Assembly (NCBI GenBank): GCA_903813345.2
Contig: CAIIXF020000005.1
Location: 30,755,375 to 30,819,374, forward strand
DNA from: Owenia fusiformis
Lineage: Eukaryota > Annelida > Polychaeta > Sabellida > Oweniidae
Direction of reading: 5' to 3'
Length of the DNA stretch: 64,000 nucleotides
Shown here: positions 31,801 through 63,226 of the stretch, one piece after another
Numbering within the stretch: position 1 is the first letter of the stretch
How the letters are laid out: the number at the start of each line of letters is the position of its first letter
Notes under the pieces: generated by a model
Database searches by the model: none
What the model was told of the DNA's origin: nothing
The model's input: only the letters and a program-made list of their open reading frames with translations
Position numbers and translations under genes: made by a program

Positions 31801-34800
31801 CTACCTTATTAAGTTCTGAAAGGACGATTCTCGGTTTGGAGAACAGTCTCCTGGGCTAATAATTTTCTTCATGAAAAATATAGAAATATTACCCAAATTA
31901 AACTATGAATATTCAAAAGAGGACATTTAGATCTACAAGATGTAAAAATAACAAATTGGTCTGAAGCAGGGATAACGCTCAATTTGACCGATTCAATAAA
32001 TTACAAATCTCGATTTGGGGAAAGAAGTTCATCAGTGTACTGCGCGAATATTTTTTTGCGAAAAATCTAGAAATATTACCCAAATTAAATTATGACTATT
32101 CAAAAGAAGACATTCAAATCTATGTTATGTAAAAACCAGAACAACGGCAACGCCAAAGCGTAGCAAATCCCATCGAACAGATATGGCTGACATTTTTACA
32201 AATATATAGCAAAATCATAAAATACAAACATATAAGAAAGGCCACCATTTTCAAAATGGTTGCTAACTAGCCAAGTTGTCATCAGATGAAGTAATATGCT
32301 TTCAAGTAGCCACATATTAATTTTTCAAAAATCGAACAAATGTACAATGTAAATGGTGGCCATTTTTTAAAATGGCGGCCTACTACTCAATATCATAAGA
32401 CAGTATACAATGCTTATGAGTATTCACATATCATTTATGAACAAAATCACTCTATTACTTTTTGAGTTCAAATACAAAATGTAAAATAACACACATAAAA
32501 ATCGTGACCATTTTTCAAAATGGCCGACTACCCCCCAGTGTTATTAGACAATGTACCATTGAGTATTCACATATAAAATATGAACAAAATCGCTCAGCTA
32601 CTTTTCGAGTTATATTAAAAAAATGTAAAAATTGTTTCCATTTTTCAAAATGGCTGCCTACTACCCAAAGTGTCATTTTACAGTGTGCTATGCCTATAGT
32701 ATTCATATATAAAAAATATGAACATGATCAGTCTACTACTTTTTAGTTATAGTGAAGAATGTAAAATAATATACGTAAAGATGGCGGCCAGTTGTATATA
32801 TGAACAAAATCGCTCCACTACTTTTTGAGTTACAGTAAAAAATGTTTAATAACACACATAAATGGCGGCCATTTTTCAAAATGCTCCACACCTCATGCAA
32901 AGAACAGGTCCATTTAACAGACTATTGGTCCACTTAGACTTTTTCTGAAAAACTCATTCTTCCATTTACTTTTAAAACCGATTGCAAGTTGTAGAGAAAC
33001 CTTTTTTCTTGAGATGTGCAATTTCAAAAAGAGGCATTAGTTTTCAGTTTCTTTGAAAAATTGGCAGTAAGAACCCCTATCACAAGACTGTCTGGATATG
33101 GGTACACACTATGTTTACCATCAAAATAATATCAAAACTTATCATTATATAGAATTCATTATATGGAACATATGGCATAGAAGCATTCGGAGTAGGTCAT
33201 TAACAAAATCCAGCTATGTATGAAGTTTACTGATGCAAATCTGGAAAACATTGTCATTTTTGTTCAGTTTGTTATCAAGTTTTAGCATGGTGCTCATTCC
33301 CTTTCATTGAAAATTTAACCATCAGCCCACACTCCCACAAAAAAGATATTGAAACAGTATAATGCAGAGACTGTAAAGTAACTCCCCTGCAAATATCATT
33401 GTTTGTGGGAGTGTGGGCTCACCACTAAAACTTAACTTTTGTGATGAAAATAAGGCTGACTGGATTATGTTTTCAATATGGCTGCTAACCTGGGCATACA
33501 TGTACACTACATAACTGCATGTACAGATTAGGCCATTCAAAATTCATTATATGTTGGCATTCTGATGATTGGCCTTATATTAAAAACTACAAAACCTTTA
33601 TTTATTTAAAGGGTTTTATATATTATTTAATAGTGAAAATGCAATAACACATTGTGGCAAATCAAGTAACACACCTTGATTCAGAAGATGACATTCTTAA
33701 TGAAGACAATACTGAAGCTTATATACATGTAGTTTTTAATCAATCTTGGAACTCATTTCACTACAATATAATTCAAGATCACAATTCCCTTTGTCATTTA
33801 TATGCATTTCAAGTACAGGGTACATGGGAACATTTTGCTTTTTCTGAAAACATAGAATTTAGTGACATTAATTATAAAACATCTTTGAATGGCCTAAGTG
33901 TTTTTATAAATAGGGTATAAGTTATTATATTATCATTATTTTAAGCAATCCTTTGAGTGTCATGCCATTTATACATGATGCTGTCTTACATTTTATGATT
34001 TATATTGAAAGACGATCTCTCTGAATTATTTTTGTTTCAATTATGCGAACTGCAAATTGGCAAATAACTTTAAGATTAAGTCTCCATACAGACATTTAAT
34101 TTCAAATTCCAAAGCAAATGCCAATGGGTATTTATTAAAAGTGACCCTATAACTATTTAGAATATGGCAAACATGTTTAGAAAACTGGCGAGAAGCAATT
34201 GAAATAAGAAAATCCATTCTCATGGAAGTGGCCTTGTGTGCATTTAATTGCAGTCATTTTATTCTAATTGCCCATGGGCATTTAAAACAATAATCACATC
34301 CAAATTCTTAAAACATGCTTAGGATACTGTTGGAGTCTCAAAGGGCAACAAGAACATTCATTTTTGAAACAGGAACATTAAGTCCCCCTAAAAATGGCCA
34401 TATGGGGATTTATTCTCAAGACTTCCTTGTAATTGCCCGTGAGAATTTATTAAGAATATTTTTATTTCCATTCACATGTCTTATTATCAGTCACAATCAA
34501 AATTAAGCCAATTGCTTCCATTTCTTGTATTAGAAAACCGCAAAATTTTGACAAAAATAGCATCTCTCAAAGTTGACCTTTAAACCACTCTTATGTCAAG
34601 GTCAAATGTCAAAATTCTCAGAAATCACATTTTAAGTAATAAGTCATACTTCCTCTTCAATTCCGTATCAATATATACTTGTTTTGTAGGGGGGCTAAAA
34701 GAGGGGTTTACCGCCACCTGTCCTTTTGGAGAGCATTACATCATCAAGGAATGGTCATTCCACATTGCACTGAGTCCAGGGCTTAAATCCTTAAATAAAA

Positions 34801-37800
34801 CCTTTTAATATTATTTACAAAATCACACATTGCTTTGTACATATCATACCATTAGGCCTACTTTTACCAGTTCTTATATATAAAATAATAAAAATACCAG
34901 AAATTGATTCATTACTGTTGGAGTGATAAAAAACAAAACTGTCTGCCATTTTTACAAATCACCCTATGATTAGTGATTGTACCTATTTTGAATGGCGAGA
35001 CATGGCGCTTAAAAACCAAAGAATATTAGTACCATAATTTTGGAAGTCCTAAATCTATAGCACAGGGTGATGATTTTGTCAGATTTTATGCTGTTTTAGA
35101 AGTGGAAGATGCTAAATTGTGCATTCCATGTGTTTTCAATGCAATAAAACGCATAGTAAAGGTAAAACAATCCTTTAAAGATACAATTTGAATTTATCAC
35201 AATAAATTACGATGTAATATTATCAAACTGTCAGTAATCCCTGATCGCTTTATGTCACCAAATGAGCTACATATTATCAGTTAGGGGGGACTGCATCAAC
35301 TATATCACATTGTCTTGAAAATGAGATGCTTCTGAGCTGGATGCTATTCTCCCGCTCCTTTGTCTAGTTTCCCCTACCATTTACCCCCACTCTCAACTTC
35401 TATTCTGGATTAGTGGCAGCCCGTGAGTTAAAAAACAACAAAAAAGGTTGTAGTCAGTTAAAGGGTTAATAGGGAATCCTGGAAGGGTTAATAGAGAATG
35501 ATACCTTGGTGGTTTTGATGTGTTCCTTTGATTTTAATCGAACTTTCTAAAAACATTAATTCTCGCAGAATATTTGATATGTAAAGCTTCAAAGTGCATG
35601 CACACTACAGTAAAACCTATCTAAATGAATAAAAGTACCATTGGTACTGTGTTAATATGGGAAAATGTTTAACCTAAATTTAGCTGTCTCACTGGTTGAG
35701 TAAATTAACTAAAAAGACCTGAAAATATGAGTTTTGGTTACATTTACTAGATATTTTTCCAAAGCTTCTGGATATTAACCTATTATCTTAGCTGCCTGTG
35801 TAATTTTAAACTTGTCAGGCCTGGCCAAAAATTCTTTCAAAATCATGCAGTGTTCACCACTTTGAGCACTTTACATACAAGTGATTTGAGGCATTTTTGG
35901 GACAAAATTGTCAAATGTCCCCCTGGATATTTTTGAAAAGTGACCCCCCTTAGCAAATCCTGGCTATGGGCCTGCTTGTAGATATTGATTATCTATAAAT
36001 AATAAAAAATGAAGTTACCTGTACAAGCAGATTGATGGAATACTTGTGGCCAAAAAGAGCTAAAACCTGATTTTTCTGCAAGAAAATTTGCCACCATTTT
36101 GAAACAGGTGACCTTATGAGGTGCCACTTAATGGACAATAGACTAGATGCGAGTAGAAATAATCTTGATTTACGTCATTAAATATTCAAAATTCAATCAA
36201 AGTGACCCCTTATTTGAAATCTGCATGTTAAAGTACATCTAGAAATATGGCTTCGAAAATTGTCTATCAACTTTGAAAATTAAATTTTTTGGGCAAATGT
36301 GACTTCTTGTTCGGGTTGATTCCCCATAGACCCCATGTTACAAAATCACAAAAAGTGAATTATCTTCTCTTGTATTGGACAGATAACATTTTCTTTTACT
36401 GGACATATTTTAATTTGCATTACTATTTGATACATAAGGATTATATGAAAATTGAACAACGCAAATAGATGTAATTTAAGTTAAAGGGAAGTATCTACTA
36501 TACCCGCCATGCTATCTGACCCGAGCGAGCCACCTGGTGATGAATCTGGTAACTACATACTCGCATCTGCGTTATTGACGACATAAAGAGACTAATCTTA
36601 AATAAGAAACCATTGCAATTGTCGAGGAGGATTTTGAATTCTTAGACTTTATCTTGTCATACAAGTGATAACAATAATAAAAATGCTGTTTCATGCATAA
36701 GGTTTTGCTGTACTTCTTTTCTCGTACTTTTGAAATATTTGAATCCCTTTGAAGTTACTTTTAACAGGAAGTATGACACTTTTTCCCAAGCCTAAAATTC
36801 TTGAATCTTATTGGTCAAAATGGTTCTGGTAAAGTGATTGTACACAGTATAAAAGAGTTTGTCTTCAAAAATATTGCCATTGGAACACTCGGACACTGAC
36901 CAAAGTTACCAAAGATGTCTTTACTTGGATATGGGAGTCAGGGTGTTGTGCTCAAGCAAGGAAATGTAGCCGTGAAGCAGCTTAGCACTGCAGAAGTAAG
37001 TTTTTATATTCTTTAAGTAACCTTGAGCTTTTTTTAACTAATCAATTGAACAGTATGGATTATATTGGTGAATTCTAAAATACTCTTATTAACTTGTATT
37101 GAATGTGCACTCATAAAGCATCTTCTACACTCTATGTGCTCTCTGACGTAAAGGGGAGATTAATGCTGATTCTCCACTGTTTTGCCTGGACTCATAAACC
37201 CTTCATGGGGAGGCCCTCGAGCAAGCAGAATGAATCTAACCCTTTCTAGGAGACAACACAACATAGAGCACACCTATCATGCATCGTACACACAAATATC
37301 ACTGCTCCTCATTTTTTATGTACCTACAAATTATATAATGGATGTTATCTCAATTGAAGGTCCAGTAAAAGACTGTCCATGTACTTTGGCTTGAAGTTAT
37401 TATAAGGTGCAATTTTGAAATTTAATTCCTCGCTTTTTTACATTCATTGACAAAACATCATAATAGACATCATCCATTGATCCCTATTGATGTCAAAATG
37501 TCACCACCAGCCATTTGTTACAGACTTTGAATTCTGACCACCCGATGCCAAACACCAAACGCTATCCACAAAAAATTGAAGTCAGTCTAACATTATTTAA
37601 AGGCAGAATCTGATCTAAAGGGGGTGACAAAATTACAAGCAACATGTATAATTGACCTACCAATCTATTCCTTACAATATCAAATAAAATATCTCCTAAA
37701 AATTTTTTGTTTGGTCTGCTCTCTATATATGATTCTCTCTTTAATAAAATAAGGCAGTATTATACAAAATATCACTACCTGCCATTTGTAACAGACTTTG

Positions 37801-40800
37801 AATTCTGACCGCCGGATGCCAAACACCAAATGCAATCCACAAAAAATTGAAGTCAGTCCAAACATTATTTTACAAAATAAGGCATTAAAGGTGCAACAAG
37901 TAGTGCAGAGGGGCCATTCAACGATCAGGACCAGTGTCAAAATATATTTAAGTTTGGATATTTCATCAAGACTAACATCTATTTTTATTTTCTAGAAAGA
38001 AACCCCCTAGAAAATCATTATTTCAGCTTATATTCCTCTTGAAACATGGTGGATCTTGAAAATATAAAAGTGGACGTCCCCTTTTTGAAGCTTTGAACTG
38101 ATTTTACACTTTTTAATGCCGAAATTGATAGTTTATCCATACATTTTAAGAAAATGGGTATGTCGAAGAAGATGTTAAGCCAACTGTTGCCTTGATAGCT
38201 CAGAAAAAGTTAAAATTTTCCTATTTTCTCTCTACAATCCTTATTGCCCCTTTAATATACAAAATGTCACCACCAGTCATTTGTTACAGACTTTGAATTC
38301 TGACCGCCCGATGCCAAACACCAAACGCAATCCACAAAATATCGAAGTCAGTTTAAACATTATTTAACAAAATAAGGCAATAATATACAAAATATCTCAA
38401 CCTGCCATTTGTTCCAGACTTTGAATTCTGACTGCCTGATGTCAAACACCAAACACAATCCACAAAAAATTGAAGTCAGTCTAAATAAGGCATTAATACA
38501 CAAAATGTCACCACCTGCTATCTGTTACAGACTTTGAATTCTGCCCGCCCGATGCCAAACACCAAACGCTATCCACAAAAAATTGAAGTCAGTCTAAATA
38601 AGGCATTAATACACAAAATGTCACCACCTGCTATCTGTTACAGACTTTGAATTCTGCCCGCCCGATGCCAAACACCAAATGCAATCCACAAAAGATTGAA
38701 ATCAGTATAAACATTATTTAACAAAATAAGGCATTAATAGACATAATGTCACCACCTGCCATTTGTTACAGACTTTGAATTCTGACCACCCGATGCCAAA
38801 CACCAAACGCTATCCACAAAAAATTGAAGTCAGTCTAACATTATTTAAAGGCAGAATCTGATCTGAAGGGGGTGAAAAAATTACAAGCAACATGTATAAT
38901 TGACATTATTTAACTAAATAAGGCAATAATATACAAAATATCTCAACCTGCCATTTGTGACAGACTTTGAAATCTGACTGCCTGATGCCAAACACCAAAC
39001 ACAATCCACAAAAAATTGAAGTCAGTCTAAATAAGGCATTAATACACAAAATGTCACCAACTGCTATCTGTTACAGACTTTGAATTCTGAATGCCCGATG
39101 CCAAACACCAAATGCAATCCACAAAAAATTTAAGTCCGTATTTGTTAAGATAATTGAAGTTGTAAGATTTTGTTACAGACGCCAACTGCCAGACCCCATC
39201 CACCATCCGCCGTCACAAAAATCAGAGACCATAATAATATGTCAACACTTTTTGGTGGTGACATTAAAACATAGCATCCGGCATATTCTTAAATTGGACA
39301 TTTTATTTCAACTTTGAGTCAAATCACCTTTTCATGAGTGTCAATTGAGCAAACAATATGGTACACTTAAAATCTCTTATGCTTTATAGTTGACCATATA
39401 TCTTCGCATAACAGCATCCACTTGTTACGTTAGATAGACACCCTTGCTGCATTATACAATATTTAACTAATGAATGACATTCCAAAATTGATATCAGTCA
39501 TCCTTAATAGCATCCTATTCTTGATGTACACTGCTATTTAAGAAGTGTTCTGACATCAGATCATAACTCCTGCTGCAAACAGCTATCTTAAATCCAATGA
39601 AATATGGACATTACTATGGGGAAGCTACTATGGGGTGTATATACAATGTATGCATTTCATTCTCAGCACACAATTTTTATATTATGTGTTTCAGGATGCC
39701 AGACGGGAAGGCGCAATGATGATGAAATTTGTTAGTCCTTTTATACCAACGGTTTTTGATGTCTCTGTGGAGAAGTTCACCATTTCAATGGAACTGTAAG
39801 TATAAAATGAAAATATATTTATTAATCATATCTGTTGTTTCATTGAAAATCATGCAAAATGAATGAAATGGTTGGCAAATGTCATTTTTTCATTTTGTCA
39901 CAGCTAACATGAGCGAACCAGTGAAAAAATCAAATTTAGATTTGCATGATTTTACAACACTTCCACATTATACATTTGTATTTTTAGGGCCTTCTCTGAT
40001 GCCTTCAGCTTTTTTGAAAGAAATGATGTAACTGGGGGCCTTAGACTAAGATTGGTGGCCATGATGGGGCTTGATATTGCCATGGCGATTGAAGAAATTC
40101 ACAGCAATGGCATCATCCACTGTGATATCAAGCCAGAAAACATTCTTGTCTTTAGTGACACAACTAGAAGAAGACAGATTTTCAAAGTAAGTTTCATATA
40201 TAAATAAGAGATGGTTTATTACACAAACAAAAAGTAACATCAATATTTTAAATCCAATAATCTGTTTCTTTTGCATGAATGTTTTTATAACCACCACAAG
40301 CCTGCAGAAAGAAACATGAAATAATATATTAAATATTAATGAGTATGTGCAAATGTTTTAGCTGACAGACTTTGGCGCCGCGGGCGAAGTAGGGGATACA
40401 TGGATGGTGGGTACTCCAACTTACATTGAGCCGGAGACGATGGCATCCAGGATCATGGCTCCATCCACTGATGTCTTCAGCTTAGGAGTCAGTTTAATCC
40501 ATATGTAAGTTATATACCATTTCCCTATAATATTATGAATGAAATTCCATTAAATAATACTGGTTATACTGACTGCATTTTTGGGAATTGAAATATAAAT
40601 ATTTCCTAAAATGCTGTATTATATATTCTTTCATTCCTCAATTTTTGTATTTGCAGGCTAACAAACAGACAGTCCCCAGACCTGATGGGTGCTGCGGAAA
40701 GCAGGGTGTTTTATAAAAAGCAATTACAACGTATCAAAGGTGTCATTTCTTCTAACCGTAAGTATAATTTGGTTCTTGTAAACAGACCTGGAATTACTCA

Positions 40801-43800
40801 CTTCGAGAGCCATGTTAGATTTTGAAATCCAAATAGCTTTCGCAGGAAGTAAACCTGGAAATAATAAATCATAAGAATTTTTATCACAATAATACAGAAC
40901 TTACACACTGGTAATGATCAAAAACATCCATCATGAGATATCACAGCTTCCTATCAGTTTCCTTCAAGTAGGTCAATTCTCTATAATTACTCCATTTTTT
41001 GTTTTATGGTTTCAGTGTATACTGCACTATACCAAATACTGGTTGAGCTGTTTAGGCCAACTGCCAAGGGCTGTGTGTATTTGCTCAGTTAGAAACTTGG
41101 TAGGTATTAAAGTGATTGAGTTTAAAATCCTGAAAACTAGTGAATTTCTCCAACCACACTACAAGCTTACTTCTTCCTAAAATAAATTCAAAATCAGATT
41201 TTCCTAATCTTCATCATTCTCATGTAAATCCTCAAAGTATGAAGTGCTGATGAAGCTCATCAATTTCAACTGCTATTTAATCCCGATGAAGACTTTCCTT
41301 CATTTGTAAAGTTGACATAAGTACTTTATATGAGACTTTTATGAACAAAATTCCAAATCTGGAACATGCTGCATTTTGTCAGAAAGGTGATTAGTTGTGA
41401 CTGGTTAGAAAATCAAAATTAAAAACAGAGCACTACTGCCATCTTTATATTGACTTAAAACCTGCAGAGAAATACATATGACCAAACTCACTTCATTCTG
41501 CTTTTCTGTAGTCCTGTATATAGTATGTTTAACTAAATAATGCTTCATATTTTATTTTCAATGTTTTTTAGGAACTGAAGACTGCTACCATACAATATGA
41601 CACATTGCATCATTCTGCCAATCTACTAGCCAATCTGCCAATCAGAGATCATTCTTCATATACTATAGACATTAGATACAATTTCGGATACAATAATGAC
41701 ATTTCATTGAACTTTGTAATACAATTAATGAAGGCATATAGTAAGACTAGTATCTAATGGGGTAAATTGTACATAATATCAACATATCTAGTTCAAATTA
41801 AAGGCCCACTATACTTAATTTACATGTAGAAGAAAAATTTAAAATCATAAAAATTACTATGGTTTTATGAACATGAGTGATGTGTAAATTGAAGCCTGGT
41901 CTTAGAACGTAAAATAACTTGACATGAAGAATTGAAAATGAACAATGTTTACTGTACAAATATATTTAAAACTGAAATACGTCTTATACATCTTATAAAC
42001 TGAAATACATCTTATAAACTGAAATATACAAAATTGTTTTATGTATTCTTCCTTTATAAGAGATTATGAGAAGTTGTTAAGACATACCTGCCAACCTACC
42101 TTATTTTTACGGGAATCTATCGTAAAAATTTTGTTTTTCCTCAAAAAATGACAATCTAACGTAAAAAATTACCATATTTTCCTGTAAAAATGACTGTAAA
42201 AAAATCTACTGTAATTTTACCGAAATCTACCGTAAAATATTTTATTACAATTTGTTTTTTTTCTATAAGAACGGCCGTAAAATAAACCGTAAATATTTGT
42301 AAATCTACCATATTTCTGCTGAAATTAACAGTATTCATTTTCAAACTACCATAAAATCTACCATTATTATTTGGAAATTCTGTAAAATTGAAGTCTTCCC
42401 AGATCCCGTATTGCCTTTGTAATATTCCATTACCAACCCAAAAATAAATAGGTGTCGGCACGTCTGTGAAAGTGGTTATTGCGTACTTAGTAAGTAACTA
42501 AGTAAGCTAGCGTGTGATCAGTCAACACACTGGGGAGTATTTTTCCGTATTTTTCAAAATCTTCCGCAAAAACTACCGCATTTTCTTTAAATCTACCGTA
42601 AAACTACCGTATTTTTAAAATATTCCGCAAAACGACAGTTTTTTCAAAAATCTACTGCTAAATCTACCGCATTTTTTCAAAATCTTCCACAAAACAACCG
42701 TGTTTACAAAAATCCACCGCAAAAACTACCATATTTTTTCAATATCTACTGGAAAACTACCGCATTTTACAAAATCTTCAGCAAAACTAGTTTTTCAAAA
42801 ATCTACCGCAAAACTAAGGCATTTTTTATTAATCTCCAAAAAAGTACCATTTCTCAATAATCGATCAAAAAATCACAGAAGTTTTTCAAAATCAACTACA
42901 AAACTACCATATTTCTTTCAAAAAATACTGCAAAAACTACCGCATTTTGACAACTCGTATCTACCACAAAAATACTGCAATTCAAAAAAAACTACCGCAA
43001 ATTTTTGGTCTTAGGTTCGCAGGTATGTAAGAGATATGTCTATGGTAAAAACTGTCATCTCAGCTCTACTATGTAATGAATATTAGTGAAGAATTACATT
43101 TTTAAAGGACAATTGAAATAGCTTTCTCAACTTGCAGCTACAAAAATGTGGTTTTCTGCATTGTAAGTCTAATTTCACGACAACCATTAAAAGAAATGTT
43201 AAATAGCTGTTAATGGTCATTATAATAACATTATAAATAAAAATGGATCAATCAGATTGGCCCCCATGTGATCAGTAACATCTTGCATAATTTATAGTTT
43301 AGCTCAATTGGTTTCTTGGTTATCACTACGTCAAGGCAACCTGAGGATTGTTGTGTAAACAAATAACAAAAAATCTTACTATTTTGACATCATGATTCAA
43401 CTGATCAAAACGAGTCAAATTGGGACCAGTGAAATGTCACGAGTGGTCCAAAAACATGACAAACGCGACAAGACATTTAAATATTGCTTATTAAGTACCT
43501 TCCACGTTTAGTAAAATGAAACAGTTGCCAGGTACCTGATAAGCTAACATATCTAAATACATTAATTATTTAAGGAACAAAAATTGATAGACCATTCAAT
43601 ATGTTGAAATTTGCGTGCTGTCATTTTTGCCATTCCCAGATATGACATCACAATACAGTTCAGATTTCCGGATGTGCACAATGCACAGTTGTGCATCTAT
43701 GGAGAAATAGAGAATGTTCTTTATTGGCTATGCTGCACATGTATTCTGATTTGTTGAGGAATTCAATTAGAGCACAGTCATGTCAGGATAAATAATATTG

Positions 43801-46800
43801 ATTCCTTTAGGTTTAAATTACTGTTTCAGTTGTCCTTTAAATGGGAATATAATATAATGAATAAAATAGCTACTTTCATTTTTTATCTTTTATGTACTGG
43901 AATCATAAGACAGGGAATAAAGATGACAAAATGTCATTCCAGTATAATGTTGTAACTGTAACATTTGTTACAAACACCAACTATAATATTTGTTACAAAC
44001 ACCAACTATAATATTTGTTACAGACACCACCTACCACTTTTTGTGGCGAGATAATTTAACTTTAGCTATCTTACAAGTAATGTACACTGTACAGACTACA
44101 GGGTGGCCAAAAAAATGTACAGTTTGATAATAAGTTTGCTCCATACAGTATTATGCAATTCATAGCAAAATAAGAGCATTTGCATCTTTTTACTTTCAGC
44201 ATGGACACTCTGTACATGAGATAACTTATGCTGATTATTCATAGAGTATGACATGATATATTTGGAGAACTACGTAGATACAGATTCTTCCTCTTGATAA
44301 ATTTTTGTCTAACACTGCTCAATTGACATCTGCACAAAAATGATCTTCTCGTCAGCACTTCATATACTGCTTTTTAGTCATTGATAAAGATTTATTATAA
44401 ATCACTTTAAAAAAATAGTAAAGTGTCCTCTATCATATGTACTTAAAACATCCTGAATCATGAATAATGGTTTTTCATTATTTGTGTCCAGATTAATCAC
44501 TGTTTAAGTTGTTTTTAGCTCCATCTTGGTTTTCATCTTCATTAACTTTCTTTGCAGTTTCCTTACCATCTGATGCAATAACCTTGACCTCTAGCTTGAC
44601 CTGGTTTTCCTCTTGGTTGCATTTTTGTTTCTTTGGAGTGGAGCATACCAGACTTTCACACTCATCAAAGCTTATCTGTGAGAGATCTGAGTCTAGGTTT
44701 TCAGAAAGTTCTAATTCATGGTTAGCCTTTTTGAGTTTTTCTTTCAGGTCTGCAATTTCTTTTGCTTGGACGAAGCTGTCCTTTTTAAGAGATGCCAGTT
44801 GTTTACGGACAGCCTGTGCATCACACTTAGCTGCATTTGATAACCCAAGAAGAAATTCAATGTCTTGATCAAGCTTAACTGTTGCTTGGGATAAGCCTTT
44901 AAGAGTTTTCACTTTACTCGCAGAGTCAGGTACTGTCAGGTCAAAATGCACACTCTTTAGTTCTTTAAGTGCAATAGATGACTCCAGCCTTGATATGATT
45001 TTGCTCAGTTTCTCCACTAGCTAGAAAAAAATAGGCTGACTTTGCTAAGTATATCATAAAACAGACCCGTGAAATGTGTGTAAACAAATAATTTGTGTCT
45101 ATGGAGTTGATAATTTAAAGGGCAAGAAATGAAAAATCTAATTATTCATTAGAAAATCGAGGATTTTGGAAATGTATGATTAATACTGGCAAAACATGAA
45201 ACAAGGTTATATAATCATGTGAAAATACTGAAGATGCTGTATATCATAGTTTTGGAGTATTTCTTGATCAGAAACTAAATATACAATTTTTCACAATTAA
45301 AATACTCGTGAAAAATAGTCATATTGTTTGAATCAACATCTTGAATATTGTTTTATGTAGATTGAAATATAAAATGCAATCAAACATATAAAAACATTTC
45401 AAGATTTTTCAAATGACAATCTCCAAAATATTTTATCAAGCACTTTTATAATCGTACAAATAATTATAAATTAGCAGTTGAGTCACTATTTTTACATAAT
45501 AATTTTTTTTATCTCAAAGTTTTTCTTCAAACAAGCCTTAGCTCTTGTATCAAGGTTTAAGGTTAAATTTTCTACTTACTCCTGAAACTGTATTTGTAGC
45601 CATTCTTCCTTCAAATATGTTGCAAAAATATCGATATATTTTGAAGTTGCTATGCCAAGATGTTAAACTTGAATGGCTGACCCTTGAAATTGAGCCCCTT
45701 TTATATACAATACTATGGGAAATTATTGTGGGAAACTAATTTTACAGGAAATGCAAATTTTATTAAAGAAAGATCAAAGGTAAAAAGTGTGGGAAATTAA
45801 AAGCGAGTGGTTGATGATAAGATTGTCAAATTATTCTCGCAAAATGCTGTGAGAAATGATGGAATAAAATGTTTCTATATGAAAGATCAAGGGAAATCAT
45901 CAAATATAAATGATCTCATAAAGTGTGGGAAAGTGTATGAAAATAATATGTTGTCAAAAGTAAACAAAGAAATATAAGATCAAAAGCTAAAAAACGTGGG
46001 AAATTTTAACTTTTGTGGGAAAATTGGTTCAAAAGAAAGTACCTCAAAACATTAATAGAAGATCAAAGGAAACCATGTAATTTCTCACACTATTTCAAAA
46101 TAATTTCGCAACAATATAAGATCAAAGGTAAAAATTTTGTGGGAAAATAAAATCATAAGAAAGTACATCAAAACATAAACAGAAGATCAAAGGAAACCAT
46201 ATAATTTCTCGCAGTATTTTAAAACAATTTCGCAACATCCTGGGTGTGGCTTTATAATTCCCACACTTTGGATCATTGCAAGACTATATAAGATGGAGAA
46301 TTCTAACTTGAAATCACATGAACAAAGAGAAGCAAACATGAAGTATCAACTATATATTTGGAAAAATTTATATTCAGCCTATGGATCCATAAACAGTTTT
46401 TAAGCAGGATCGCCAAAATGAAGCAGAGGACCAAACTTGACAAAGATCAACTATGTGAATGGAATAGCACTGATTCAGGATATAATTCGATTAAGAAGGA
46501 CAGTTATCCTAATAAACTTGTACTTAGTGCAATGTGAAACAAACTATGAAGCTATGAACTATTCAGCATATTGTTCCAGTATACAGGTGAGACTCTTGAT
46601 CTGTATGCATTCCTGATGATATACATGTAATGTTATATCTCGTAGTTTGTCTGAATCGTTCAGGGATTAAAAATCTAACTATTTATACATATTGCAAAAA
46701 CTGACCTATTATTCTATCCATGATATAATATTTACTTTAATTTGAATTATTTTGCATGGACATTGAATCTTTTGCATAGTTTCAATGTCTGCGAAAATAA

Positions 46801-49800
46801 TTAAACAATTAGAAATAGCAGATAGATAGACCATATCTTTGATTAAAATCTCACAAAATTAGGAATAATAAATTATGTTCAATAGAAGAAACACATGAGT
46901 ATAAATTCAGGTGTGCACTTATGCAGTATATAAGTGAGAATTTAAAAATAAAGACTTGTATTATAACAATCAAAATCTGGAATCATCCTCCATTTTACTT
47001 AGAACAGAAAAAATCCCATAATAAAACTTGACATTTAAAAAATGTACTTGAAATAGAAAATTATATTGAGTTTAACAAAATATTTTGAATGTTAGGATAC
47101 TTTAAGGTTTATTTCCTGTGGAAACTTCATGAAAAGTATTTAAAATTGAAAAGGTTAGCAGGAGTAATTGACCCTTGATTTAGATTCATAATATCATTAA
47201 TTAATTATCCCACAAAATTTGAAGACTGCTTTCCCATTAAATGCAACATTTGAAAAATTGTACTGTATCAGTACAAGATGAATAAGCTGTGGTTTTTGAA
47301 TGAATTTAAACGTAATATATCTTAACATTGTTGATACTTCTAAACCATCTACATGTATTTTCTTTAAATGGTCACTTAACTTAGTAAGGGAAAAACTTTG
47401 AGTATTGGATTTTAGGAGAAATTATAGACGTGGCTACTAGGTTGATGCTATTAATTCTCTTAAGACTCAATATGAATGGTTTATCTAACTTAAACCACTT
47501 ACTGGGCACTGGGTCTTATGAAAGGTAAATGGTCCATGATCTACTTTCAGGAAAATTTGATTTATTAATTTTTTTTAAAATTAATTTTATAGACATTCCT
47601 TACTATTCTTTATTGTTATTCTTTCTACTTCTAACTCCCTTTCAACCATCTCCTACATGCACCTTCCAGGGAACTTGGCTGAACTTGGTGAAAAAGATTA
47701 ACTTTGCCTAGATTTTGAGATATTTAAGGTCAAAAAAGGTTTAACTTCAACTTGCTTCAATTTGACCAATTAAAAAAAAATATTCTACAAGATCACACGA
47801 ATTCAAATCTGACCTTAGTTTTGACATTTGGCCTATGGTTGACCTTCAGCGACCTATCAAATTAATTTTCTGGATTCATATTTAGGTCAGTTCAGTTCTG
47901 ACCTTTGATATGTGATTTGACCATTGGTATAAGGCATAATTCACCTGCTCTGTAAATTTAATTAATTGCATGGTTCTTTTAGCTAGTAGGAAACTGAACC
48001 AAATCATCTATTTTACTTATAGAACTGAAGAGAGCAATTCAACCTGACAAACCTTACTATGTGAGGCAGCTAATAAGATGAATATCTTCAAATATTAACA
48101 GTGAGCCTTTCTCAAGACAGTGAATTATTACTGAGGCATCAAATGCAGCAATGTAGGATGTAGGATGTACAAAACATCTTCGACTATCTGAGAGTGTACA
48201 ACTACAAGGTAAATGATTAGCATACCTAAAAGCTGACAATTAAGGCTAAAGACGATTCAGAACTCTCACTTGTAAGAATCCCACAATGTCTCTACAAGTA
48301 TCTAGAAAAAATTACATAGCTGCAACTGTAGCTGGACATTTCAACCAAAGTGCTAGAAGGTTTGACCATGAGGGGCAAGGAATACAATGTACATGCAATG
48401 CTTTAGTTGCGTTGTGCTTTTCAAAAGTAAAACCTATAGAAGAATGGCAAAGCATTGATATTAATAACATCCTAATTCAAGGAAATGAAACCTATTTACA
48501 TGTCTGTAAAGTGCTTAACATTAGCCCAAGGTTACTAGGTGTGTCTGAATTGCCTTCAGTTGTCAATATTTTTAAAAGGGGCTTTAAAGTGCATCAAAAA
48601 GAACCACTTAGTGGTATGATAGGTAAAAAACCATCTCACGACCAAACCCACATTGTTGCTTTACATGATGCCCTTATCAAACTTGAGGATATAACTGATA
48701 CACATCTTATAACTGTTCCGGGTTATACTATATGCCTTGTGATATCAAATGGAGAATATTTTGTGATTGACTCGCATTCAAGAGGGCAAGATGGATGCAT
48801 GAAAATAGATGGTGGTGTTGCTATGTTGTATAAAATGTTGTCAATAGAAGACCTAGAAACCTTTTTGTTAGAAAACTGGAAGAGTATTGGAAAAACATTA
48901 GATGATCAGTTTGAAATAACACCAATCATTCTTATGGCTGCTTTTCATATGCCATCAATTGAAGATTATTTCAAAGATCAAGAAGCAAAATGTGAGCTGC
49001 AAAAGTTGAGTAAGAAGGAGCGTGAAAAACAAAGAAAACGAAAGTTAAGGAATCAATTATCTGACAAAGATATAGATACTATTAGAGAAAGAGAGACATT
49101 GTTAAGAAAACGTTCAAGGTCAAGAAGAACAAGTGAACTAATGGAGGAAGATAGGGGTGTAGATAAAACAAGGAAAACAAGGTCAAGGTCAAGAAGGACA
49201 AATGAACAAATGGAGGAAGACAGGGGTGTAGATAAAACAAGGAAAACATGTTCAAGGTCAAGAAGGACAAATGAACAAATGGAGGAAGACAGGGATGTAG
49301 ATAAATCAAGAAAAATGATTTCAAGGTCAAAAAGAACAAATGAAGAATGTACATTAGAAAAGGAGAAAGAAAAGGAGAGATTATCAAATTTACGAAGAGA
49401 ACATTCCCAACAAAGAAAAGATCTGGAGAGAGAAGCAACCAGGGGAAGAATATTCCACACCAGAGCAATGCGGTGTGATGAAGTACAGGAGGAAGATAGA
49501 GAAAAGGATAAATCAAGGAAAACTAGATCAAGGTCAAGAAGGACAGATGAACAAATGGAGGAAGATAGAGGTGTAGATAAAACAAGGAAAACACGTTCAA
49601 GGTTAAGAAGGACAAATGAACAAATGGAGGAAGACAGGGATGTAGATAAATCAAGAAAAATGATTTCAAGGTCAAAAAGAACAAATGAAGAATGTACATT
49701 AGAAAAGGAGAAAGAAAAGGAGAGATTATCAAATTTACGAAGAGAACATTCCCAACAAAGAAAAGATCTGGAGAGAGAAGCAACCAGGGGAAGAATATTC

Positions 49801-52800
49801 CACACCAGAGCAATGCGGTGTGATGCAGTACAGGAGGAAGATAGAGAAAAGGATAAATCAAGGAAAACTAGATCAAGGTCAAGAAGGACAGATGAACAAA
49901 TGGAGGAAGATAGAGGTGTAGATAAAACAAGGAAAACATGTTCAAGGTTAAGAAGGACAAATGAACAAATGGAGGAAGACAGGGATGTAGATAAATCAAG
50001 AAAAATGATTTCAAGGTCAAAAAGAACAAATGAAGAATGTACATTAGAAAAGGAGAAAGAAAAGGAGAGATTATCAAATTTACGAAGAGAACATTCCCAA
50101 CAAAGAAAAGATCTGGAGAGAGAAGCAACCAGGGGAAGAATATTCCACACCAGAGCAATGCGGTGTGATGCAGTACAGGAGGAAGATAGAGAAAAGGATA
50201 AATCAAGGAAAACTAGATCAAGGTCAAGAAGGACAGATGAACAAATGGAGGAAGATAGAGGTGTAGATAAAACAAGGAAAACTAGATCAAGGTCAAGAAG
50301 GACAGATGAGCAAATGGAGGAAGACAAGGATGTAGATAAATCAAGAAAAATGATTTCAAGGTCAAAAAGAACAAATGAAGAATGTACATTAGAAAAGGAG
50401 AAAGAAAAGGAGAGATTATCAAATTTACGAAGAGAACATTCCCAACAAAGAAAAGATCTAGAGAGAGAAGCAACCAGGGGAAGAATATTCCACACCAGAG
50501 CAATGCGGTGTGATGAAGTACAGGAGGAAGATAGAGAAAAGGATAAATCAAGGAAAACTAGATCAAGGTCAAGAAGGACAGATGAACAAATGGAGGAAAA
50601 TAGAGGTGTAGATAAATCAAGGAAAACTAGATCAAGGTCAAGAAGGACAGATGAACAAATGGAGGAAGATAGAGGTGTAAATAAAACAAGGAAAACTAGA
50701 TCAAGGTCAAGAAGGACAGATGAGCAATTGGAGGAAGATAGAGGTGTAGATAAATCAAGGAAAACACAGTCAAGGTCAAGAAGGACAGATGAGCAAATGG
50801 AGGAAGATAGAGGTGTAGATAAATCAAGGAAAACACAGTCAAGGTCAAGAAGGACAGATGAGCAAATGGAGGAAGATAAAGGTATAGATAAATCAAGAAA
50901 AGTGAATTCAAGAGCATTTGAAAAATCAACACCTGCACTAGATAAGAATGTAGGAGTTTTCAGAAAGAACATATCGGAGGGACCATTTTACTTTTGTACT
51001 TGTTGCTTGCGATCTTTTTACAGACACTCGGTCGTTCAATTTAAAATTGAGCAATATGTAAAAATTTCAAAAGAAAGTATGGCCAACTTTGTTACTGAGA
51101 CGAAAAGTTTAAACGACAAAGATTATATATGTAATAGCTGTCACAGAGATTTTAAAAAGGGTGATATGCCTTCTGTTTGCCATTATAACTCTCTCCAACT
51201 GTCAGATATACCAGAGGAATTAGCAATACTGAATGAGTTAGAAGTACGCCTTATTTCCCAGAGAATTCCATTCATGAAAATTTTACTGCTTCCAAGAGGT
51301 GGTCAGAAAGGTATACAAGGAGGGGTTGTAAATGTGCCAAGTGATATGGATAAAGTCTGTTCTCTCCTACCTAGATGTACCTCAGATTCGGGTTTAGTTG
51401 GCCTAAAACTAAAAAGGAAACTATCATATGAGGGACATGTTATGTCTCAAATCATCAGACCTGATGCAATTGAGAAAGCATTGAATTATCTTTCAATGAA
51501 TAACAAATTATACAATGGTGTTTGTATAGACAAAAACTGGAAATCAAAAAGCAATGAATCTGACAATGAGCTATGGACTTCACTGACACAGGAAAATGTA
51601 ACAAATGGAGCACAGAATGAGGACATAGAGAGAAATAACACCATACACACAAAAAGTGGAACACAAGGAAATATGAAGGAAAAAAGACAAAAGTCAAAAA
51701 TCGGCAGAGTAAATTATTCTGAAGAAAACAAAACTAACAAAGATTCAGAAAAAAATGAACCACTTGATAGTAATGACAGCAGTGACTCTTCTGAGAGTGA
51801 AGGTGAAGTTGAAGAATCTTCCCCAGCAAAACAGCTTGATACATGCTTGCACCCAGCAGAAGTTATCACAGAAAACGCAACAGTGAGTATAGCACCTGGA
51901 GAAGGGCAGAAACCCATAGGTATTTTTAGGGACACAAACTGTGAAGTTCTCTCATTTCCACAGCTATATCCAAATGGAGAGTTTGGCTTTGATGTCAAAA
52001 GAAATAAAAAGATTAGTACAAGGAAATACTTCAACACTAGACTTCTTTGCAAAGACACAAGATTTTCATCATCAACAGAGTATCTGTTCTTCGCACAATA
52101 TGTTGCTGAATCAGAACAGATACAAAGTGAAATAAGTATGACATTACGTAAATCCAAATTGCAATCACTAAATGGGAATTATATAACAGCTGCAGATGCT
52201 AAAGATCCCTCTACACTTTCCAAAATAATAAGGTATGATGAGGGATACAGAATGTTTACAAATATCCGTGGATCCCCAGCTGCATGGAAGCAAATGCAGC
52301 TTGACTGCCTTGCAAAAATCAAGCAGTTAGGTACATGTACCTTTTTCTTTACATTGTCTGTAGCAGATACGTACTGGAGTGAAATAGTGCAAGTTGTCGC
52401 AAGAATGTATGGCGAAAGTTTCACATCAGAACAAGTGCAAAGGATGGATTGGAAAACAAAGTCCTCTTGGCTGAAAAGAAATCCAGTGATTGCAGCAAGA
52501 CATGCTGATTATATGTTTCAGCAAATGCTTGGAAAAATCATATTAGCTCCACCACATCCAGTTGGGGAAATATTAGACTATGATTTCAAAAAGGAGGCAC
52601 AGAGTAGAGGTGCGATGCACTTTCATGGGATATTATGGACTAAAGATAGCCCAAAATATGATGAGGACACAGATGAAGAAATAGCTGACTTTGTTGATAA
52701 ATATATATCTTGTAAAGTACCATCTGTAGATGAAGATGAAGAGCTACATACATTAGTCTCAAAGCTTCAAACACACAGACATAATAAAACATGTAAGAAA

Positions 52801-55800
52801 AAGAAGAACACAAAATGTAGATTCTCATTTCCAAAACCTCCTTCAGATAGAACACTAGTAGCTAGAACTCCAGTTGATGAAGAAGAAATAATTAAAATGG
52901 ATGAGAATGAGGAAATACTCAAAAAGGTGTATGATACAATAACTGACTGGAGTGATGATGCTAGGCCAACTTTATCAGAACTTCTAGGAGAAGCTGGCAT
53001 ATCTTCTGAAGAATATCACAATGCTTTGCAATTTGCAAAGAAAAGAAGTACTCTCATTCTACAAAGGACTCCAGATGAGATGAACATAAACAATTACAAC
53101 CCAGATATTTTACGTATCTGGAGAGCAAATATGGATCTTCAATTCTGTCTAGATCCTTATGCTACTATTATGTATGTTACCTCCTATTTATGCAAGCCAG
53201 AAAAAACTATGAGCGAGCTTTTAAGAAAAGCGAGTAAAGAGAGCAATGATGTAGGAGTAAGAGAAAAATTGAGAAAACTTGGAAATGTTTTTCTTACTCA
53301 CAGAGAGTTCTCTTCTCATGAAGCAGTGTACAGAATCTTGTCCATGCCACTTAGACAAAGCTCAAGGCAAGTGATTTACATACCCAGTGACATTCCAGAG
53401 AAACGAACAAGACTGCTGAAATCTCAAAATGAACTTTCAGCACTTGATGATGAAGACACTGATATTTTCAAGACAAATATATTGGACAGATATGCCGCTC
53501 GACCCAAAAAATTAGAAGAGATGTGTCTTGCTGACTTTGCTACACAATATGCCTTGCATGGGTCAGAGACAAAGGCAAATGAAGATTGTGAAAATGATGA
53601 AGAAACAACGGAAAAACAAGATACTATAACTGTACTTGGTAAAACAATGAGAAAAAGAAAACGCCCATGTATCATGCGATACCACAAAATAGCAAAAGAA
53701 AAAATCCTGAGGAGCATGCACATTCAGAACTCATTCTATTTTTTCCATGGAGAGATGAAGAGCGTGATTTGAAACATGATGATAAGACATATGCAACAAA
53801 GTACATAGAAGTGGATAGAATTCTCATGGCTAACAAGAAAAGATATGACAGGTTTGACAAAGAAGTCGAAGAAGCCTTAAGGGCAGTTGAATCAGGAGAT
53901 GTACCACAGTCAGCATGGGATGAACTAGCAGGTGGAGTAGAACAAGAGAGAGAAGACATGAGTAAAAGAAGAACATTGTATGACATAGGGGAAGATGAGG
54001 TGGAGTCTGTAGGAGTATCAAAGGATCCAAAGAAAACTAATAAACCTTATACTGTAGACTACTCATCACACATAGTATCAAGTGACGAATATTCTACCAT
54101 TGTACAATCCTTAAATGAAAAGCAAAGACTGCTTCATGATTTTGTGCGAGAATGGTGTAGGAGCATAAACCAAGAAAAGATCACGAACAAAAAGACAGAA
54201 CCATTTTACATTTTTCTCAGTGGAGGTGGAGGGGTTGGGAAGTCACATAGTATCAATGCCGTGTACCAAGCAGTGACACATTCACTAAGAAAGGCAGGAG
54301 ATGACGTTGATAGCGTGGCATGCATATTAACAGCCTCAACTGGTGTTGCCTCTTTCAACATTGGAGGTATCACTGTTCATTCTGCTCTCAACCTCCCAAG
54401 GAAGGAGTCAAATGCCGAGGGAACGCCTGAATATACAGCAATGGGAGCTCCAAGACTAAATACCATGCGCATGAAATTGATGAATCTCAAGCTTCTTATA
54501 CTTGATGAAGTTTCAATGATAGGATGCGAAACATTCCTCCATATAGAAAAACGATTGGGTGATATAATGGGAATTCCAAAAGCAGATAGGAAAACTGTGT
54601 TTGGTGGAATTTCAATATTAGTAGTTGGAGATCTGCTCCAATTACCACCTGTTGGAGGAAGTCAAATATTCCTTCCAACAAAGGCAAATAGAATGGCAAT
54701 GCTACATGGATCCTTGTGGAAAAGATATTTTAAACTATTGGAACTCACTGAGATACATAGGCAGAAAGATGATCTTTCATTTGGGGAAATGCTGAACAGG
54801 ATAAGAGAGGGTCAAACAACTCAACATGATATAGAAGTTCTGCAAAGTAGAATAATATCTCCAGAAGACCCATTGTATCCAAAACAAGCTTTGCATGTGT
54901 TCAAAACAAATGAAAGTGTGAGAAACCACAATGATAAAATGTTGAGATCAGAGCCAGAGTTAGATGTATATGTGATAAAAGCAAGAGATACCTCTGATGT
55001 AGAAATTAACCCATCATCACTTCCAGATGATCATCACAAGACTGGAGGATTGATGTCATCACTGACTCTAAGAGTTAATGCAAAAGTGGCATTGACAAAA
55101 AATATTGACACATCAGATGGCCTTGTAAATGGTGCAATGGGTACCATCTCAGCAATTAGTAACCAAAGTCATGATCCATTGGAATGGATAATATGGATAA
55201 AATTTGAGCATGAAAGAGTTGGTCAAAGGTCAAAAGAAGTACTGAGACAAAATGATATGATTGGTATCAAAGCTACAGTTGCAACATTTGGCCTTGGGAG
55301 AAAGAATGCATATATTAAAATCAACAGATGCCAGTTCCCACTTATCCTGGCATGGGCAGCAACGATTCACAGGACACAGGGGTTGACCCTGGAGGTTATC
55401 GTTGTATCTTTTAAAGCAACCTGCTTCAACAATGGACAAGCTTATGTGGCACTTAGCAGGACTAGGACACTGGGAGGATTATTCCTTCTTGACTTTGACC
55501 CCAAAAAAATATCTGCTAATAAGAAAGCAATGTCAGAAATGGTACGTATGCGCTCAGAAATGCCATTCGAATGGGATTATCCATTTCGTTTGGTTGATGA
55601 AGACAACTCCATGATAGTAATGTACTTGAATATATGTTCTTTACGACAACATAAAGATGACTTTAAGAAGCACAGTGCATTGATGAATTCAGATATCATC
55701 TGCCTTACTGAGACAAACATCAGAAAGGATGATGAGGAATATCACATTGAGGGTTATGACATGGTGACTAAAGATACAAAGCATGGAATGGTTTGCTATA

Positions 55801-58800
55801 TAAAATCAGACATTCTCTACTCTGTTCTAAATGACAGATCATACCTTCCAACAGAAACAATGACAGTGAAGATACAGAAAAAAGAAACAGAGTTGAATGT
55901 TGTTTCAGTGTATAATCCACCAAAGATGAATGCTACCACTTTCATTAATCAACTCCAAGAAGAAGATTTTATGAAAAACTCAAAAACTCTCATCATTGGG
56001 GATTTCAACACAGATTTACTAAAAGATGAAGCTAGTGTGAAAAGATTGAAACAAAGTACTAACATTATGAAGCAGTATATAACTACTCCCACACATAGGG
56101 CAGGAGGCTTACTTGATCATATATATGCCAACCAATGTGCCAGAGATGATGTTATATCTAGTGGCACATTTGACTGTTATTACTCGGATCACTGTGGACT
56201 ATTTGTCATTCTTGAACTTGACAAAGTATCAACATAGTGTGGTACAGCTTACTACTATGATAATGGTAATGTGTGTTCAGCATCATATGGTGAAAAACAT
56301 TATAGACTTTGTTGTAGCCAGATGCATTGCAGATAATTTGTGTCAGCCATATTAAAATTAAAGGCAGAATACATTACAATGTTTTGTAAGAGAGCCATAT
56401 TAAAATAAATTGCTCAATTGACAACTGAAGGCAGAATACACAGTAATATTTTATAAGAGATCCTAAGAAAAAAGTCATGTCTGTATCATTGTAATATATG
56501 AGAATCTAAGGCAATAAAGGCATGTCTTTGTATCTTTGTAATATATAATGTAAGAGAATGTAAGATAAAAAGTCATGCCTCTGTATCATTGTAATGTACG
56601 AGAATCTAAAAGAAAAAAGTCATATGTTTGTATCTTTGTAATATATAATGTAAGATAAAAAAGTCATTTCTTTGTATCATTAAAATGTACGAGAATCTAA
56701 GAGAAAAAAACTCATGTCTTTGTATCTTTGTAATATATATAATGTAAGAGAATGTAAGATAAAAAAGTCATTTCTTTGTATCATTGAAATGTACGAGAAT
56801 CTAAGACAAAAAGTCATGTCTTTGTATCTTTGTAGTGTACGAGCAAGTTCTTTAGTCATTTTGTTCCAATATACATACTTACTTAACTTAAGTAAAATGT
56901 CCGTTAACCATTGAGTAACTCTTTTGTAAACTTCAAATATTACTAGAGACAAGTTATTTCGATTATGAAGCCACCATTTTTATGCTATGTGCATCCTATC
57001 ATGTTATCTTTATGCTATTCTGACATATCAAAACACTGACTAACTGCTAAAACATGTCAAACATTGACTAAAATAAAATGTAAGCAAACCTAAGGTACCA
57101 GCCTACTGTATGTCTTTATAATATCATGTGTAAACATATATAAAACCTGGTTGCCAACTAGCCAAAGTGTCATAAGACAGTATTATGAGTAATTCAAAAA
57201 TCAAATATAAACAAAATCTCTCTTTTACTTTCGATATACTAAAAAACAAAAAATAAATAATGGCAGCCATTTTCAAATAAGACAGTGTGCCATGCTTAAG
57301 AGTATTCACATACCAAATATAAACAAAATCGCTCCACTATTTTACACTAAGTTACAGCAAAAACTGTAAAATAGTATGTAAAGGCCACCATTTTACAAGA
57401 TGGCTGTCATGTGTTTCTTAAATATCTACATTTTTAACTTTATTATGTTCTATATATCTTCTTTACATTAAAAACACATTGGAATTACATTTTTATATAT
57501 TGTATCCAAATTTGTGTAAAATCGGCACTTAAATGGACGCCATTTTGAAACAAGCAGCCATTTTCAAAATCAGCTTTCGAGCAGAACTTCTACCCCCATA
57601 GAGCATAAGTGTACAAAATATGAACAAAATTGGGCCAACGATATTTGAGTTATCGTCCAGACGGACGGCCGCCTTCTACCAAAAGTGTCATTAGACAGTG
57701 TTACATGCTTATATTATTCACATACCAAATATGAACAAAATTGCTCCACTACTTTTCAAGTTATAGTAAAATAAGTTAAAATGGCGGCCATTTTTCAAAA
57801 TGGCCACCTTCTACCAAAAGTATCATTAGACAGTGTGCCATGCTTATAGTATTCACATACCAAATATGAACAAAATCGCTCCACTACTTTTCGTGTTATA
57901 GTAAAATAAGTTAAAATGGCCGCCTTTTACCAAAAGTATCATTAGACAGTGTGCCATGCTTATAGTATTCACATACCAAATATGAACAAAATCGCTCCAC
58001 TACTTTTCCAGTTATAGTAAAATAAGTTAAAATGGCGGGAAAAATGGCCGCCTTCTACCAAAAGTGTCATTAGACAGTGTCCAAAATGGCCGCCTTTTAC
58101 CAAAAGTATCATTAGACAGTGTGCCATGCTTATAGTATTCACATACCAAATATGAACAAAATCGCTCCACTACTTTTCGAGTTATAGTAAAATAAGTTAA
58201 AATGGCGGCCATTTTTCAAAATGGCCGCCTTCTACCAAAAGTGTCATTAGACAGTGTGCCATGCTTATAGTATTCATATACCAAATATGAACAAAATCGC
58301 TCCACTACTTTTCAAGTTACAGCAAAAATCGTAAAATAACGAGTAAAGACCGCCATTTTTCAAGATGGCTGCCATGTGCTTCTTTAATATCTACATTTCT
58401 AGCTTTATTAATGTCCTATATAATTTTTTTACATTTGAAACATATTATGTTATAGTTTTTAATATTGCACCCAAATTACTGTAAAATCGGCACTAAAATG
58501 GCCGCCATTTTTGAATCAGTGGCCATTTTGAAAATCGGCTTTCGAGCAGAACTTCTACTTCCATAGGGTATATGTGTACAAAATATGAACAAAATCGGGC
58601 CAGCGGTATTTGAGTTATTGCCCGGACGGACGGACGGACGGACGTACGTACGTACGGACGGACGTACGTACGGACGGACGGACGTACGTACGGACGGACG
58701 GACGTACGTACGGACGGACGGACGGACGGACGGACGGAGGCGTTCCCTATATCCCTCCGAACTTCGTTCGATGGGATAAAAATCAAATTTGTCCGAAGCA

Positions 58801-62839: not shown

Positions 62840-63226
62840 TTTAAAGAGAGAATCAGAGATAGCGAGCAGGCTAAACAAAAAATTGTTTCAATTTTAAAAT
62901 ATTTTTGGCTCAGGTCATTCCTTGTCATGTCTATTTTCTAAAAATCACAAAAGTGCAGATACTTTATTCAAGGAAAACGAAGGATTTTTCCAATAATGTA
63001 TTATTTTTCTTCAAGAATGGTAACCATTCTTATTATTTGGGAGAATTTAAACATTTTTCACCCATTTTTGCACTTAGAATCATTTATAACTTCACCAATT
63101 TATAACATATTGTGAATCTTTTGGGAGATATTGTATCTGATATTGTAAGGAATAGATTTGTAGGTCAATTATACAAGTTGCTTGTAATTTTGTCACCCCC
63201 TATAGATCTGATTCTGCCTTTAATCT
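62840..63226 (-). repeat. Dispersed repeat also found inverted in the kinase intron
   Basis: The complement of 63130-63226 (AGGCAGAATCAGATCTATAG onwards) matches 37594-37690, and that of 62840-62895 matches 37710-37755. The kinase-intron copy lacks the middle part. Confidence 0.7.

Follow-up and report, generated by a model that had tools for sequence, protein, structure and literature searches.

Helentrons and their short relatives, the HINEs, are the closest described counterparts of the element discussed here, which lies in a 64-kb stretch of DNA from the annelid Owenia fusiformis (C5:30755375-30819374 of a 498-Mb genome; the window). As described by Thomas, Vadnagara and Pritham (2014, PMC4067079), Helentrons encode Rep and a PIF1 helicase with a C-terminal AP endonuclease, carry subterminal inverted repeats (subTIRs) and a 3' palindrome, insert in T-rich targets, are outnumbered by non-autonomous relatives with the same ends, and occasionally contain gene fragments. 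The window element resembles them in all these respects, and one published family, Helentron-Da-40, also has an antisense replicase. It differs from the Helentrons described there in its length of 26.6 kb, in kinase exons that contain introns and in 345-bp in-frame repeats between a deubiquitinase domain and DUF6570. The oyster Cg_HINE, as outlined in PMC7492417, has a 5' subTIR with an inverted repeat, a GTCC-type microsatellite, central satellite-like arrays and a 3' subTIR with a palindrome. The same parts recur in the window, but Cg_HINE is non-autonomous whereas the window element has an autonomous-type interior between two arrays. Oyster has 751 predicted Helitrons with a mean length of 1.1 kb, 17 of them with gene fragments (PMC7992393, in part). 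Captured gene pieces enlarge the cargo elements of maize and fungi as they do here, although those elements are Helitrons and this one is an animal Helentron; the fungal ones reach 14 kb and the maize ones 39 kb (PMC6431247, in part), so size alone is no record.

The reading that we favour, and consider fairly probable, is that 26.6 kb of the window are one mobile unit, an endonuclease-type rolling-circle transposon (Helentron) inserted in an A/T run of a 393-bp terminal-inverted-repeat (TIR) element. What is unusual in it is the size for an animal element, the intron-bearing kinase exons, the antisense replicase and the Rep residues RGAM. Below, labels of the form L0xx denote individual genomic stretches, and C4, C5, C8, C11 and C12 denote contigs. 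The insertion and its host are as follows.

31819-32135, plus strand: left-hand portion of the 393-bp TIR element that forms the host unit, with five A at its end, by alignment to the complement of 59074-59466.
32136-58777, minus strand: the complete Helentron of 26,642 bp (C5:30787510-30814151), its 5' end being 58777 and its 3' end 32136, from the alignment, the ends and the subTIRs.
58778-58857, plus strand: right part of the host unit, starting with the shared A-run, by alignment.
59074-59466, minus strand: unbroken inverted partner of the host unit, the empty-site control, with 26-bp TIRs, by alignment.

Two 393-bp TIR units form the host, and the unbroken partner serves as an empty-site control. 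The first-pass annotation had proposed that the left unit is interrupted and resumes to the right of the insertion. This is borne out: 31819-32135 and 58782-58857 add up to 393 bp and align end to end with the complement of the 393-bp partner (BLAST pieces of 95.9% over 317 bp and 98.8% over 81 bp). The insertion interrupts an A-run: five A stand at the left (32131-32135) and five at the right (58778-58782), while the partner has seven. A short target-site duplication may have been made at insertion. Taken strictly, the insertion spans 32136-58777, or 26,642 bp, with the end position accurate to a few A, and both ends can be read directly from the sequence. An A/T-run target is also seen at other copies, which have AA on the left in 18 of 19 cases and on the right in 12 of 13, in agreement with the oligo-A/T target suggested earlier. 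CACTA elements have the termini CACTA/CACTG. The host units have 26-bp TIRs that start AAAGGACGATTCTCGG, so the label CACTA-like first given to them does not fit.

The ends of the element and the arrays next to them are arranged as follows.

32136-32166, minus strand: 3' terminus, with a predicted stem between the subTIR and the end, from folding and from copies.
32167-32178, minus strand: 3' subTIR, ATCCCATCGAAC on the plus strand, from the sequence.
32179-32883: 3'-side array of HINE-type units with palindromes like GGCCATTTTTCAAAATGGCC, ending mid-palindrome at 32883.
57148-57667: inner 5'-side array and tail (W1), truncated in a microsatellite; its junction with the 3' region of the Rep and helicase coding DNA (RepHel) is shared with a copy on C4.
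57668-58777, minus strand: outer array, tail (W2), GTCC microsatellite and 5' terminus with the subTIR at 58766-58777.

A genome search with 32136-32600 gave 3602 first-look candidates, of which 40 were scored. Among the other scored places 38 of 39 match from query position 1, which shows merely that similarity reaches 32136, since the query begins there. Nineteen other copies, every one picked by its left end, were examined. Their left flanks differ (by eye), and similarity therefore stops at 32136. The right end (within 6 edits) is present in 13 of the 19, at the same base as in the window, and was not found in the stretches examined for the other six (L003, L005, L008, L043, L044 and L046). 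The 13 two-ended copies, 1,169-1,847 bp long, are HINEs, non-autonomous relatives of the Helentron. The search for same-ended copies that had been proposed thus yielded copies ending at the same bases, and the element, described at the outset as unusually long, far exceeds them in length.

The inverted end motif noted earlier is a perfect 12-bp subTIR pair, ATCCCATCGAAC at 32167-32178 and its inverse at 58766-58777, lying 31 nt from the end at 32136 and 0 nt from the end at 58777. Next to the subTIR on the 58777 side are an inverted repeat and GTCC repeats. In mite Helentrons, according to PMC4067079, subTIRs are 12-15 bp long, the 5' subTIR lies 2-4 nt from the 5' end, the 3' subTIR lies 38-60 nt inside the 3' end, and a palindrome stands between the 3' subTIR and the 3' end. 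In oyster HINEs the inverted repeat and a GTCC-type microsatellite are on the 5' side (PMC7492417, in part). Because the subTIR spacing, the inverted repeat and the GTCC repeats match these published 5' ends, 58777 is by published criteria the 5' end and 32136 the 3' end, which places the element on the minus strand with its replicase antisense. The 31-nt distance of the 3' subTIR is shorter than the 38-60 nt of the mite families (PMC4067079, in part). The earlier placement of a 3' hairpin end at 58781 is reversed by this assignment. Folding alone cannot set the polarity, since both ends fold: the last 60 nt at the 32136 end contain a predicted stem (-11.3 kcal/mol, calculated without a shuffle control), and the first 70 nt at 58777 give -20.8 kcal/mol. 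All 19 other copies, picked by that end, have a similar stem sequence at 32136. Canonical Helitrons have TC...CTRR ends and insert between A and T. The window element, with ends CCAGAAC.../...GATGGGAT in an A-run, lacks such ends in either orientation.

The replication and transposition proteins are encoded in two open reading frames (ORFs).

48286-53772, plus strand: ORF1, 1828 aa, with a herpes-tegument-like deubiquitinase domain (VTD), 345-bp in-frame tandem repeats, DUF6570 and Rep (Helitron_like_N).
53667-56237, plus strand: ORF2, 856 aa, with a PIF1 helicase and a C-terminal endonuclease, overlapping ORF1 in another frame.

The Helentron proteins recognized in the first-pass annotation are supported by Pfam matches to Helitron_like_N (8.2e-21), PIF1 (2.2e-27) and Exo_endo_phos (1e-8), and the best relative (P0004) has Rep, helicase and endonuclease domains. 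The N-terminus of ORF1 (aa 15-215) matches PDB chain 8add (E 8.7e-10; listing name ATP-dependent DNA helicase), which we take to be the zebrafish Helitron VTD. The predicted domain contains a Cys and an Asp-x-His motif (by eye), like the VTD deubiquitinases of Helitrons and Helentrons in PMC9741609, the available part of which names vertebrates, insects, cnidarians and molluscs as hosts, whereas the present host is an annelid. The Rep motif reads EAQSRGAMHFH. Motif 2 has S in Helentrons and L in Helitrons, a usual though not a defining mark in the sample of PMC4067079 (in part), and the S expected after G in a Helentron is missing from RGAMHFH. The element is a Helentron, judging from the endonuclease fusion, the ends, the target and the HINE partners. 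Because Rep and helicase lie in different overlapping frames, the window copy may be inactive, unless the frame break is an artefact of assembly in the A-run near 53.69 kb. Frame breaks occur in the ORF1/ORF2 overlap region of the C4 copy as well, and its ORF2 contains three TGA codons.

Two further observations concern these proteins. The 345-bp tandem repeat at 49112-50912 stays in frame within ORF1 and encodes RSRRT-rich repeats. A second Helentron family (L013-L038 and others; 29-35% to ORF2) has open frames of up to 3377 aa; its members are often on small contigs (C13, C505, C515) and are possibly active or clustered.

A genome search with ORF2 gave 53 matches, of which the close copies are the window itself, C4:27750513-27753077 (93% of amino acids) and a fragment on C8 (pieces of 82-93%). 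The C4 copy (27.7418-27.7547 Mb, 12.9 kb), the closest relative, lacks its 5' terminus. Its parts run from the left terminus through an array that holds a nested TIR element, the interior, the kinase exons and RepHel to the 3' region, a further array and the tail. ORF1 residues 1-934, which include the 345-bp repeat part, have no match in it. The window flanks 31500-32133 and 58603-59500 have no match of at least 100 bp at E <=1e-10 to it, and it is therefore not a segmental duplication of the window site. The junction between RepHel and array at 57148 is identical in the two copies. Between them ORF2 has a synonymous divergence (dS) of 0.10 and a ratio of nonsynonymous (dN) to synonymous divergence of 0.25 over 849 codons, and for the ORF1 C-terminus dN/dS is 0.17 (gapped and stop codons dropped in both). 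Identity is 96% in RepHel, 80-91% in other common stretches and 56-59% in the kinase DNA, exons and introns alike. The kinase exons in the window are as follows.

39695-39795, plus strand: kinase exon A, splice sites intact.
39988-40186, plus strand: kinase exon B (HCDIKPEN), splice sites intact.
40362-40504, plus strand: kinase exon C (DFG, GTPTYIEPE), splice sites intact.
40657-40793, plus strand: possible kinase exon D, its start a splice acceptor and its end set before a dispersed repeat.

The C8 fragment has the C4-type kinase at 97.6% and RepHel at 98.3%. From these comparisons the kinase DNA seems to belong to the element lineage and yet to have been exchanged between copies, and between the window and C4 copies there has been at least one exchange or a second capture. 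Relatives on C11 (55-58%) were considered as further kinase carriers and rejected; they are split pieces without kinase matches in the 28 kb examined.

Was it the 26.6 kb that moved, or something shorter? The strongest competing explanation is that a short HINE of 1,858 bp (32136-32883 plus 57668-58777) was later split by a 24.8-kb block containing a Helentron without termini of its own, so that the 26.6 kb never moved whole. Several points weigh against a single mobile unit. At 32883/57668 the two outer arrays fit together exactly in phase, as expected for a split HINE, and the join restores an array unit without a gap; this speaks for the split that the first-pass annotation had named as a refutation. 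The summed 1,858 bp is close to the HINE range of 1,169-1,847 bp, and the inner tail at 57148-57667 is truncated in a microsatellite, like a broken element end. Neither outer junction is common to the C4 copy, and no second copy of the full 26.6-kb arrangement turned up, in comparisons that did not include a genome search with 32860-36134. The kinases of the window and C4 copies, as their 56-59% identity beside 96% in RepHel indicates, do not come from one capture by simple descent.

These points have to be set beside the C4 copy, which has the plan terminus, array, interior, array and tail at an unrelated site, and beside the changes in the outer tail and 3' end, which are of the Helentron type more often than in HINE controls. 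Of the deviant sites in the outer tail, 11 of 26 recur in the inner Helentron tail and 9 of 25 in C4, where 1.1 would be expected in each case. Twelve of the 13 HINE controls have zero to two such changes, the highest fraction being 2/7 in L006 (0.3 expected), and the badly aligned L051 has 5/63 (3.0 expected). At the 3' end 2 of 6 deviant sites are common with C4 (0.4 expected); the controls have none in 18 of 19 cases and 1/4 in L054. Some HINE controls nonetheless exceed chance (2 against 0.3-0.5 expected), which favours the split HINE and means that the chance figure is too low. Conversion between neighbouring tails could also mimic common changes, and local conversion is possible because the common sites cluster in one stretch.

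The in-phase join itself may be a property of the arrays. Four array edges, those at 32883, 57148 and 57668 in the window and the left one of the C4 copy, are at or within the unit palindrome (by eye), so in-phase edges would be common. The junction at 57148, which is shared with C4 and is not needed for a split, falls at the same palindrome. The four coincidences were noticed after the fact and are suggestive only, and the point where the two C4 tails meet is not at a palindrome. The inserted block shows no right end of its own, since a second right-end motif (within 6 edits, plus strand) was not found in 32336-58777; the left-end motif was not searched for. Overall the split HINE is unlikely, though it deserves to be taken seriously, and a single mobile Helentron is preferred. 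It is improbable that a Helentron of ~10-13 kb inserted and that all the extra length, kinase included, came later by independent insertions: dispersed repeats do lie at 34543-34727, 36135-36577, within 37494-39141 and at 47716-47861, but in the C4 copy the kinase exons occupy the corresponding position, in the same orientation, between the 3' end and RepHel, and in the C8 fragment they lie beside RepHel.

The first-pass annotation had also claimed two further genes in the element. Gene sequence beyond its own machinery is indeed present, in the form of the kinase exons, while a second gene is not recognizable. In 32900-47499, six-frame Pfam scans detected pieces of a kinase near 40 kb and no other convincing match. 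Exons A, B and C are open and have GT/AG sites, and the intron positions are identical in the C4 copy. The N-terminal lobe and the gene ends were not found in the element, so the kinase may be a fragment. The top of 1516 solved-structure matches are CHK2 chains, a generic match. Among the papers that literature searches returned, no title or abstract opening names a Helentron-borne kinase.

In a genome search with 39500-41000, for which 40 of 670 candidates were scored, the matches among those scored are a cluster on C4 at 27.97-28.67 Mb (76-95%), a place on C12 near 7.05 Mb and a few others. The best of them, at C4:28.32 Mb (L058), is 86% identical over 928 bp and 86.6% when compared over 39437-40432, introns included in both. 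Because the introns match too, the kinase DNA is genomic and not a processed copy. The 28.32-Mb copy contains a stop codon, and no Helentron end motif was found within the 6 kb read around it. For the exons of the two copies dN/dS is 0.21 (119 codons; gapped codons and one stop dropped), from which no functional conclusion is drawn because the dS of 0.51 against 3-5% intron divergence is unexplained. In the same comparison the introns are 95-97% and the upstream flank 90% identical, while exons A and B are ~84% and exon C 77%. Exons A and B differ at 47/302 sites and introns 1 and 2 at ~15/363 (Fisher P 4e-7), the exon edges are conserved, and dN is 0.11. Guesses at the excess of silent-site change in exons over introns include homogenization of introns, selected old exon lineages or escape from exon-directed small RNA. 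The 59-bp stretch adjoining possible exon D (40794-40852) is a dispersed repeat with many copies at 86-100%.

How might such an element have moved and acquired a kinase? In the model that we propose, Rep would nick at the 5' end (58777), the helicase would displace a strand leftward with termination normally at the 3' end (32136), and the endonuclease would open T-rich targets. The kinase DNA probably entered on the 3' side, by terminator bypass or template switching, from a family like the C4 cluster, and may later have been exchanged between copies. Dispersed repeats and other DNA would have enlarged a plan of roughly 13 kb to 26.6 kb, and the satellite palindromes could offer hairpins for strand switching. 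The location of the kinase between RepHel and the 3' end is where terminator bypass would put it, which fits this route without proving it. A more far-reaching suggestion is that the lineage keeps a kinase slot, in which intron-bearing kinase genes are repeatedly captured from a host kinase family and are swapped by strand switching at array palindromes, the kinase aiding the element. In its favour are the four array edges at palindromes and the kinase DNA that accompanies each of the three close RepHel copies, despite 56-59% identity in the kinase as against 96% in RepHel between window and C4, but the joint between the C4 tails lies away from a palindrome, and the suggestion is doubtful.

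It is known that Helentrons carry gene fragments, and the window element is a useful case for how rolling-circle elements acquire and swap host genes. A single genome offers the empty site, a smaller copy whose slot holds another kinase, a further fragment on a third contig, the 13 HINEs that end alike and a kinase cluster that may be the donor, so that capture and exchange may become readable stepwise. The element is also a full-size candidate partner for the abundant HINE family.

The remaining interior DNA includes the following features.

34543-34727: dispersed repeat, with copies at 66-67% in L008 and in a C11 stretch.
36135-36577: a dispersed TIR element, of which further copies sit within the left array of the C4 copy and beside a HINE in L053.
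37494-39141: tandem-repeat stretch of ~113-bp units, parts of which match window positions 62827-63223, the C4 flank and L051.
44496-45020, minus strand: open frame of 175 codons without recognizable relatives.
47716-47861: satellite-like dispersed repeat, with tandem copies in L046.

The four dispersed-repeat stretches total ~2.4 kb and do not support the 26.6-kb length as a single cargo load. They were detected against ~294 kb of sequence, and because the comparison covered that amount, further dispersed repeats are likely. Two stretches were considered as backbone common with C4 and dropped: 36135-36566 is the dispersed TIR element, nested in the C4 array and beside another HINE, and 36683-37301 was set aside unused, having no clear terminal repeats by eye. 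The open frame at 44496-45020 was rejected as a named gene; it has no Pfam match, and 0 of 189 candidates reached E 0.01. Near it Glyco_hydro_101 (0.024, on the opposite strand) and DUF7623 (0.6) were both judged to be chance matches.

Transfer RNA and Rfam scans of the 64-kb window gave no match. Outside the element, the minus strand at 24883-26583 has an open frame of 566 codons that encodes RING and B-box zinc fingers (TRIM-like) and is possibly a host gene. An inverted pair of tandem-repeat arrays (26766-27125 and 59464-59768), with ~48-bp units that are ~83% alike, flanks the region.

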